This document shows positions 32,495 through 35,411 of a stretch of 64,000 bases of DNA, piece after piece. How positions within the stretch are numbered: position 1 is the stretch's first letter; every line of letters begins with the position of its first letter. The notes beneath the pieces were generated by a model, which had not been told where the DNA came from, ran no database searches, and saw only the letters and a list, made by a program, of their open reading frames with translations. A program made the position numbers and the translations under genes. Source of the stretch: Candidatus Brocadiaceae bacterium (lineage in GTDB: Bacteria; Planctomycetota; Brocadiia; SM23-32). The DNA lies in assembly GCA_012728835.1 (NCBI GenBank), contig JAAYEJ010000062.1:1-64000 (forward strand). Direction: 5' to 3'.

Positions 32495-32974
32495 ATGGCG
32501 CAATTGAAGACGCACGAAGGCAACCTGAACGCCGGCGGCAAGCGGTTTGCGCTGGTTGTGAGCCGCTTCAACGAGTTCTTCTCCGGCCGTCTGCTCAGCG
32601 GCGCCGAGGACTGCCTGATCCGCCACGGGGCCGCGCCCGAGGACGTCGAGGTCTTCCGCGTGCCGGGCTCGTTCGAGCTGCCGCTGGCCGCCCGGAAGGT
32701 GGCCGAAACCGGCCGGTTCCAGGCCATCGTCTGCCTGGGGGCCGTCCTGCGCGGGCAGACCCCCCACTTCGACTTCGTCGCTTCGGAAGCCGCCAAGGGC
32801 ATCGCGCAGGTGAGCCTGAGCACCGGGCTGCCCGTCATCTTCGGCGTGATCACCACCGAGACCGTTGAGCAGGCTGTGGACAGGTCGGGGGCGCGGGCGG
32901 GCAACCGCGGCGCCGAGGCGGCGCTGGCCGCCATCGAGATGGCGAACCTGCTGGACGGAATCGCCGGTCCTTGA
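32495..32974 (+). CDS. ribH: 6,7-dimethyl-8-ribityllumazine synthase
   Basis: 159-residue enzyme of the penultimate riboflavin step, condensing 5-amino-6-ribitylaminouracil with 3,4-dihydroxy-2-butanone 4-phosphate. Diagnostic segments are [30 protein letters not shown], the [14 protein letters not shown] block with the catalytic His, and [16 protein letters not shown] near the end. Length is normal, and the cytosolic protein forms icosahedral or pentameric assemblies in other bacteria. It begins the run with nusB and ftsY, a neighbourhood seen in many bacteria. The other riboflavin genes are not in this window. Confidence 0.96.
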
Positions 32975-33081: not shown

Positions 33082-34374
33082 GTGAAATCGCAGACCCTCG
33101 CGCGTGAACTGGCCCTCAAGACCCTCTACCGGCATGACCTGCTCGGCGGGCGGCCCCAGGCGGACCTGGTCGCCTTCTGTGTGGAGCACGGCGAGGCCGC
33201 CGTCGCCGCCGAGGCCATCGAGATCGTCAAGGGCTGCCTGGAGCACGCCGAGGCGCTGGACGACCTGATCCGCCGCACGGCCGAGAACTGGGACCTGGAG
33301 CGCATGGCTGCCACGGACCGCAACGTCCTCCGCATCGGCATCTACGAGCTGCTTTTCCGGCACCGGACGCCGCCCAAGGTCGCCATCGACGAGGCGATCG
33401 AACTGGCCAAGAAGTACAGCACGCAGAACTCGCCCACGTTCGTCAACGGCATACTGGACCGCATCTACACCACGCGCGTCCTGCATGCGCACGGCGAGGG
33501 CGCGCGGCCGGGCGTCGCCGACGGGGACCCCATGGTGCGCTGCGACCTGCACGTCCACTCGACCGCCTCGGACGGCTCGGTCGCCCCGTGCGAACTCCCC
33601 GGGCTGGCCGCACGGGCCGGCCTGGCGGCCATTGCGCTGACGGACCACGACTCGGTCGAGGGCGTCGCCGAGGCCCGCGAGGCGGCCGAGTCGCTCGGCA
33701 TCGAGCTTGTGCCGGGCATCGAGCTGACCGCCTATGCGCCCCGCGAGGCGTCCATGGCGGAGGTGCACATCGGCGGCCTGTTCGTCGATCCGTCGCACCC
33801 GGACCTGCTCGCCAGCCTGCGCGGGCTGCGGCGCGGGCGCGTGGAGCGCGTCGAGGCTATGGTGCGGGCGCTGGCGCGGCTCGGCGTGCTGGTGGACGCC
33901 GAGGCGGTGCTGAAGCGTTCGCAGGGAGGCGCCGTCGGGCGTGTGCACGTCGCCCAGGAGGTGGTGGCGCGCGGCTACTGCAGTGACCTGCGCGAGGTTT
34001 TCGATCGCTACATCGGCCAGGACGGCCCCGCCCACGTGCGCAAGAAGGACATGAGCCCCGGGCAGGCGATCGACCTCATTCACACGGCGGGCGGGTGCGC
34101 GGTCCTCTGCCATCCGGGCCTCGGCGGAGGCGTCGACCACCTGATCGACGACCTTGTCGCCGCAGGGCTGGACGCCCTGGAGGTGCACTGCCCCGCCCAC
34201 ACGGCCGAGGATGAGAAGCGCTACATGGACATCGCGCGCGAGCGCGGCCTGCTGATCGCCGGGGGGAGCGATTTCCATGGCGAGGCCAAGCCCGACGTGA
34301 AGCTGGGCCAGGAGGCCGTCTCGGGCATCGAACTGGAGCTGATCCGGCGGCGCGCGTCCGCCCCGTCCCGTTGA
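33082..34374 (+). CDS. NusB-PHP fusion: antitermination factor joined to PHP-family phosphoesterase
   Basis: 430 residues in one frame. Residues 1-135 are NusB (LARELALKTLYRHDLL, AATDRNVLRIGIYELLF, AIDEAIELAKKYSTQNSPTFVNGILD), an RNA-binding transcription antitermination factor. After a linker of about 17 residues comes a PHP domain of the TrpH/YciV type (DLHVHSTASDGS, ALTDHDSVEG, VPGIELTA, LCHPGLGGGV, GSDFHGEAKPD), a family of 3'-phosphate or 5'-3' RNA/DNA phosphoesterases. Usually these are separate genes. An internal ATG at 33532 could start the PHP part but has no ribosome site. The N-terminus is set by homology at GTG 33082; a TTG at 32971 overlapping the ribH stop would add 37 atypical residues. 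Confidence 0.85.
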   Translation: MKSQTLARELALKTLYRHDLLGGRPQADLVAFCVEHGEAAVAAEAIEIVKGCLEHAEALDDLIRRTAENWDLERMAATDRNVLRIGIYELLFRHRTPPKVAIDEAIELAKKYSTQNSPTFVNGILDRIYTTRVLHAHGEGARPGVADGDPMVRCDLHVHSTASDGSVAPCELPGLAARAGLAAIALTDHDSVEGVAEAREAAESLGIELVPGIELTAYAPREASMAEVHIGGLFVDPSHPDLLASLRGLRRGRVERVEAMVRALARLGVLVDAEAVLKRSQGGAVGRVHVAQEVVARGYCSDLREVFDRYIGQDGPAHVRKKDMSPGQAIDLIHTAGGCAVLCHPGLGGGVDHLIDDLVAAGLDALEVHCPAHTAEDEKRYMDIARERGLLIAGGSDFHGEAKPDVKLGQEAVSGIELELIRRRASAPSR

Positions 34375-34394: not shown

Positions 34395-35411
34395 ATGTCG
34401 CTGTTGAACCCGTTCAAGCGCAAGAAGCCGGACAGCCCTGAGGCCGCGACCCCTGCTGGCGCCGCCGCCCCGTCGTCGGCCGAGGCCCCCACCGAGCCGC
34501 GCAACGGCCTGTTCGGACGGCTCCGCAGCAGCCTGGCGCGCACGCGTCAGAAGGTGACCGGCAGCCTGCTGAGCGTGCTGGCCATCCGCCGGCCGCTCGA
34601 CGAGGCCGTGATCGAGGAGATCGAGGAGCAGCTCTACGTGGCCGACGTCGGCCCCAAGACCGTCGCCCGGCTCTGCCGGGAGCTGCGCGCGGCGCACAAG
34701 GAGGGCCGAGTCACGCAATCGAACCAGGTCGCCGAGTTCCTGGCCGGCCTGATCAAGGACGAGCTGCGCCGGTGGGACACCGAGCTGCGTCTGCCGGAGA
34801 CCGGCCCGGCCGTCCTCATGGTCGTGGGCGTGAACGGGTCCGGCAAGACGACGAGCATCGCCAAGCTGGCGCAGCGGTTCGTCCGCCAGGGCCGGCGGGT
34901 TCTGCTGGCCGCCAGCGACACGTTCCGGGCGGCGGCCGTCGAGCAGCTCTGCATCTGGGCCGAGCGCGTCGGGGCCGACATCGTGAAGAACGAGAGCGCG
35001 GACCCGGCCGCCGTGGCCTTTGACGCGGCCGAGAAGGCGCTGGCCGGCGGCTACGACGTGCTGATCATCGACACGGCAGGCCGGCTGCACACGCGCAGCA
35101 ACCTGATGATGGAACTGGAGAAGGTCCGGCGGGTCGTGGCGGGCAAGGTGCCGGGCGCCCCGCACGAGACGCTCCTGGTGCTGGACGCCACCACCGGTCA
35201 GAACGCCGTCAGCCAGGCGTTGCGGTTCAACGAACACATCCCGCTGACCGGCCTCGTGCTGGCCAAGCTGGACGGCACGGCCAAGGGCGGCATCGTGTTC
35301 GGCATGCGGGACCAGATCGACCTGCCTGTGAAGTTCATCGGCATCGGCGAACGGGCCGACGACCTGGTGCCCTTCGACGCCGACCGATTTGTGGACGCAC
35401 TTTTCGAATGA
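34395..35411 (+). CDS. ftsY: Signal recognition particle receptor FtsY
   Basis: 338-residue SRP GTPase that docks SRP-ribosome complexes at the membrane for co-translational insertion. After a short, Ala/Pro-rich acidic region (1-40) come the NG domains: [17 protein letters not shown] (G1), [21 protein letters not shown] (G3), [10 protein letters not shown] (G4) and [11 protein letters not shown] (G5 region). The N-terminal A domain is short compared with E. coli. It lies 20 nt after the NusB-PHP gene and 25 nt before the argD start, so probably in one operon. It works functionally with YidC, encoded at 61-63 kb. Confidence 0.96.

Follow-up and report, generated by a model that had tools for sequence, protein, structure and literature searches.

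A NusB domain, a linker and a PHP-type metallo-phosphoesterase domain form one protein in the Candidatus Brocadiaceae genome from which the window (the whole stretch of 64,000 nucleotides analyzed here) is taken, and the same fusion is found in most genomes of its class. The reality of the fusion is confirmed by the observations below. The gene lies between two neighbors on the same strand, which we take to be ribH and ftsY from the families as known.

32495..32974, + strand: ribH (lumazine synthase), upstream neighbor; an ORF whose protein, used as query, was recognized in homologous loci
33082..34374, + strand: nusB–PHP fusion gene, 430 aa, GTG start; from translation, family matches, alignment and conservation
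33082..33474, + strand: NusB domain, aa 1–131, a predicted boxA/S10-binding antitermination factor; above the TIGR01951 cut-off, Foldseek match to 3r2c
33475..33531, + strand: inter-domain linker, about aa 132–150, ~20 aa; from low pLDDT and the linker survey
33532..34326, + strand: PHP metallo-phosphoesterase domain of the TrpH/YciV/RNase AM type, aa 151–415; from NF041577 and NF047791 matches, conserved residues and the 9etk fold
34395..35411, + strand: ftsY (SRP receptor GTPase), downstream neighbor; an ORF whose protein, used as query, was recognized in homologous loci

Translation from GTG 33082 gives a single frame that runs without interruption to the stop codon ending at 34374, and this start agrees with an alignment of 24 homologues; a longer ORF from TTG 32971 finds no support in that alignment and was rejected. 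The N-terminal half matches the Pfam NusB family PF01029 at aa 7–129 (E=5e-34, 117.9 bits against a cut-off of 23.1) and passes the NCBIfam nusB model TIGR01951 (127.1 bits against 88.35). The C-terminal half matches Pfam PHP at aa 155–221 (E=3e-11) and two NCBIfam models over aa 151–411: the 3′,5′-nucleoside bisphosphate phosphatase model NF041577, which is its best NCBIfam match (E=1e-59, 201.6 bits where the curated cut-off is 400), and the RNase RNM model NF047791 (E=4e-47, 160.8 bits where the curated equivalog cut-off is 375). The initial annotation had described a complete NusB domain continuing in frame into a TrpH/YciV-like PHP domain, and the Pfam and NCBIfam matches within a single frame bear this out.

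An AlphaFold2 model of the fusion (pLDDT 94, pTM 0.86) is confident throughout except for the linker at about aa 131–150, where pLDDT falls to 64–69. Across 38 fusions the linker varies from 13 to 71 aa (median 24) and its sequence is unconserved, as suits a flexible tether. No internal start codon is common to these linkers; an ATG is present in only 6 of the 38, and the production of a free PHP protein from an internal start is therefore not supported.

The initial annotation had named a sequencing error that removed a stop codon, or a consistent two-gene arrangement in close relatives, as grounds for doubting the fusion, and had proposed a search of related genomes. Such a search covered 75 genomes of the class; in 62 of them the two domains share a single open frame, a tally counted by hand from the result table with single frames checked at a subset of loci, and the full-length matches are 37–62% identical to the window protein. 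We read the class as Brocadiia, Planctomycetota, from the named Candidatus Brocadiaceae and Candidatus Scalindua records in which the fusion is present. The absence of a stop codon between the domains is thus conserved class-wide, close relatives are fused and two genes are seen only in distant ones. The window genome is a MAG-like draft in 82 contigs, which together with the two-gene state of distant relatives might suggest that a missed stop, a frameshift or a misassembly had joined two genes, but the same fusion occurs in 61 further class genomes, and an artefact of this kind is extremely improbable. Sequencing error is ruled out because the in-frame fusion is shared so widely and because several of the genomes that carry it (G015, G024, G027 and G028) are single contigs. 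Its presence in one frame in so many genomes also implies retention from a distant ancestor onward.

Among the other class genomes, five have separate genes, six fragmented assemblies gave no match, one has the fusion cut at a contig end and one has a fusion with a single in-frame TAA (G337:C195:3311-4594), while its genus mates are intact, the result of either sequencing error or decay. In ten genomes checked, the only NusB-domain proteins besides the fusion are RsmB-like ones of ~467 aa, a length as expected of RsmB, and in most class genomes the fused PHP domain is the sole PHP match at E<=1e-20. We also note that the window genome encodes, outside the window, a second PHP protein of this type that stands on its own (G000:C42:15573-16364) that is 36% identical to the fused PHP domain; similar extra copies are seen in two other class genomes and are not found in most.

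Both halves of the protein look functional, as judged from an alignment of 24 fusions in which the invariant columns are spread over both domains. In the NusB half, Tyr16, Asp79 and Phe120 are invariant and correspond, by HMMER alignment, to Tyr18, Glu81 and Phe122 of Escherichia coli NusB, with an acidic residue retained at the second position; these E. coli residues have roles in contacting S10 and boxA. A Foldseek comparison matches this half to the NusB–NusE–boxA complex 3r2c with a TM-score of 0.84–0.85 by target length, and to other NusB structures that include NusB–S10 complexes. The NusB half is predicted to bind S10 and boxA and to function in rrn antitermination.

The best PDB fold match of the PHP half is Vibrio cholerae RNase AM (9etk, E=9e-20, Foldseek of the model), with further matches to CV1693 (2yb1) and BAD_1165. 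All nine metal ligands of RNase AM (H13, H15, D20, H45, E72, H83, H198, D255 and H257) are kept, as H157, H159, D164, H189, E214, H229, H344, D397 and H399, and are invariant in the 24 fusions; the E. coli tri-metal ligands are those of PMC9410882, except H15, which is unnamed in that text. The 5′-phosphate pocket residues R107, R110 and R141 and the base-stacking F161 of RNase AM (PMC9410882) correspond to R253, R256, R287 and F307 in 24/24 fusions. Almost all separate relatives also keep the ligands and these four residues. Arg201, which forms a salt bridge to bound sulfate or phosphate in RNase AM, is Leu347 in the window protein and is L, I, V or Y in the fusions; most of the sampled relatives with separate genes also lack an Arg at this position. 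The pocket residues are common to the nucleotide phosphatase CV1693, and their conservation therefore does not separate an RNase from a phosphatase. The description of this half as a probable nucleic-acid phosphoesterase can be sharpened to that of a putative RNase AM-like enzyme, and the functional interpretation in the initial annotation is partly supported.

As the initial annotation had anticipated, relatives keep the two genes side by side. Separate neighbors in the order ribH–nusB–PHP, often followed by ftsY, are found in basal class members, other Planctomycetota, Omnitrophota, Verrucomicrobiota, Hydrogenedentota and Auribacterota, at loci chosen by their similarity to the fused query, which are the loci that the adjacency count covers. 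In about a third of these two-gene loci, the start codon of PHP and the stop codon of nusB share a 4-nt overlap (ATGA, GTGA or TTGA), a usual sign of translational coupling that suggests such coupling here. Eleven loci noted for this overlap are spread across phyla. The two-gene state is likely ancestral and does not refute the fusion. In a four-gene tree, where support is by SH-aLRT only and the root and the place of family f4 are not firm, all class members group together (SH-aLRT 93) and the two-gene family f3 falls outside them. Two changes of the fused state are required on this tree, consistent with a single fusion and a single subsequent separation, in family f8. In the latter family, nusB and PHP are apparently separated again inside the fused clade (L050 of G039, and C73/C139 of G331, where the two genes lie on different contigs). 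PHP domains of the fused type are also seen in ORFs of ~535–560 aa in one Desulfatibacillum and two Lachnospiraceae records (L115:3983-5590, L116:3150-4796 and L125:4016-5692), and TrpH/YciV-type PHP domains may have other fusions or extensions beyond NusB.

In the window genome, a boxA, TGCTCTTTGACA, lies at −146 from the start of the Rfam match of its own 16S gene. It is one base off the E. coli boxA, and none of 500 shuffles was as good, where such shuffle counts are flattered by a degenerate consensus drawn partly from these and the similar sites of the other genomes; the own-genome match stands alone because the E. coli consensus had already ranked it first. Five further genomes have boxA-like sites at −115 to −174 of 16S, and 2 of the eight genomes with a 16S gene (G020 and G028) have only weak boxA-like candidates, at −118 and −116. 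RNase E/G is present in 10/10 genomes checked, and full RNase J was found in 0/10 of the same set. E. coli likewise has RNase E/G and is not known to have RNase J.

Together, these features suggest a factor for rRNA antitermination to which a 5′-to-3′ exonuclease is tethered, for the trimming of pre-rRNA or of fragments of the leader. Of the explanations considered we think this the most likely, at about even odds of being right. Binding of NusB and S10 to boxA initiates the rRNA antitermination complex, and this complex also aids rRNA folding and maturation and is tied to rRNA processing (PMC6614801, PMC10250234, PMC3639268). In the proposed mechanism, the NusB half, with S10 (NusE), would bind boxA of the nascent rRNA leader and enter the antitermination complex on RNA polymerase, placing the PHP half, as a tri-metal 5′-to-3′ exonuclease of the RNase AM (YciV) type, flexibly tethered beside the leader. 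Cleavage of the leader by RNase III or RNase E/G would yield 5′-monophosphate ends, which the PHP half could trim back to the mature rRNA 5′ end, or it could clear the excised leader pieces. In E. coli, RNase AM reportedly generates the mature 5′ ends of 16S, 23S and 5S rRNA alike (Jain 2020, cited in PMC9410882). The anatomy of the protein is established by the observations above; the RNase activity, its action on rRNA and a benefit of the physical coupling are inferred. That the fusion points to RNA processing tied to transcription, as the initial annotation had it, is the best-supported reading in view of the RNase AM-type site, the intact NusB, the leader boxA and the lack of a detected RNase J in the ten genomes, and it is an argument from homology and anatomy. 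Extended to most Brocadiia, the proposal would have boxA-bound NusB hold, by a covalent link, a domain of the RNase AM type, and this domain would trim the 5′ ends of rRNA or degrade the leader during or just after transcription, and in this general form we advance it tentatively.

In the main rival explanation, the PHP half would be a phosphatase of nucleotides or nanoRNA, acting on 3′,5′-bisphosphates such as pAp or on short 5′-phosphorylated oligonucleotides, and translationally coupled neighbors would have become fused and stayed so because the fusion was harmless or served only co-expression, without any joint mechanism. The two explanations are not told apart by sequence alone, and we consider this one plausible without thinking it probable. 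In its favor, the top-scoring NCBIfam model of the PHP half is that of a phosphatase and CV1693 has the same pocket. The shared pocket, the scores far below the cut-offs of both NF047791 and NF041577 and the Leu at the Arg201 position weigh against the exonuclease reading as such. The frequent −4 nt overlap of neighboring nusB and PHP genes in several phyla, the variable linker (13–71 aa) and the apparent loss of the fusion in one family are what would be expected of fusion without a joint mechanism. That the fusion is kept almost universally by families that diverged deeply (~40% identity), without a conserved internal start to give free PHP, is not easily explained in this way, however, and a functional link of some kind is suggested by the pairing of the two genes in phyla that are unrelated. 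Most bacteria keep NusB and PHP apart and family f8 seems to have re-split them, and the covalent link is therefore not indispensable, which counts against a coupled mechanism.

It is also conceivable that the PHP half is the cell's general 5′-to-3′ exonuclease for mRNA and oligonucleotide decay, and that NusB recruits it to transcribing polymerase so that terminated or stalled transcripts are surveyed, rather than for rRNA maturation. RNase J was not found in the ten genomes, and in vitro RNase AM can degrade an RNA of 40 nt; it also takes off FAD caps (PMC9410882). These observations would suit such a role. NusB, however, acts chiefly at the boxA of rRNA operons, and a boxA is present in the 16S leader of this genome, making general decay an unlikely primary function; the weak boxA-like sites of G020 and G028 do argue against the boxA part of the tethered-exonuclease proposal. 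A link to anammox metabolism was rejected for the window organism. Its family, f1, has the fusion and gave no match to the hydrazine synthase alpha model, and an anammox lifestyle is improbable for this organism. Two other genomes (G009 and G011) have 11–16 matches each to the Pfam model for hydrazine synthase alpha, mostly in ORFs longer than in anammox genomes, and these form an expanded family of other proteins, perhaps multihaem cytochromes.

Retention of the fusion across most of the class argues, by association, for a working connection between enzymes of the RNase AM type and the rRNA antitermination complex, and suggests, without proving, that the making and trimming of rRNA are physically joined in almost the whole class. 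The contribution of the antitermination complex to ribosome quality control has been described as unclear (PMC10250234), and the fusion offers a direct, testable link between an RNase AM-type enzyme and this complex in a class that includes anammox bacteria. If the antitermination complex does carry its own exonuclease in this way, the nusB–PHP gene pair of other phyla would be a two-protein version of the same link.

Both halves belong to known families; the domain architecture is new, and a literature search found no description of a NusB–PHP protein. Standard NusB (TIGR01951) resembles the N-terminal half in its full-length domain above the cut-off, its fold match to NusB–S10 and NusB–NusE–boxA structures and its ribH neighbor, but it is a protein of ~140 aa and not an enzyme, whereas a catalytic-type PHP domain occupies the C-terminus here. 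RNase AM, also called RNase RNM or YciV, of E. coli and V. cholerae shares the PHP fold with its insertion domain, the nine metal ligands and R107, R110, R141 and F161, and differs in that the protein described here is fused to NusB, has Leu for Arg201 and scores below the NCBIfam equivalog cut-off. The 3′,5′-nucleoside bisphosphate phosphatase CV1693 of Chromobacterium violaceum (2yb1) is alike in fold and active site; here again the NusB fusion, a Leu for the Arg after HPG and a score below the NF041577 cut-off set the window protein apart. A functional parallel is the endoribonuclease YbeY, likewise a metallo-RNase with a reported role in rRNA antitermination and maturation (PMC3639268), but YbeY is a separate protein of another family whose link to antitermination is genetic, not covalent.
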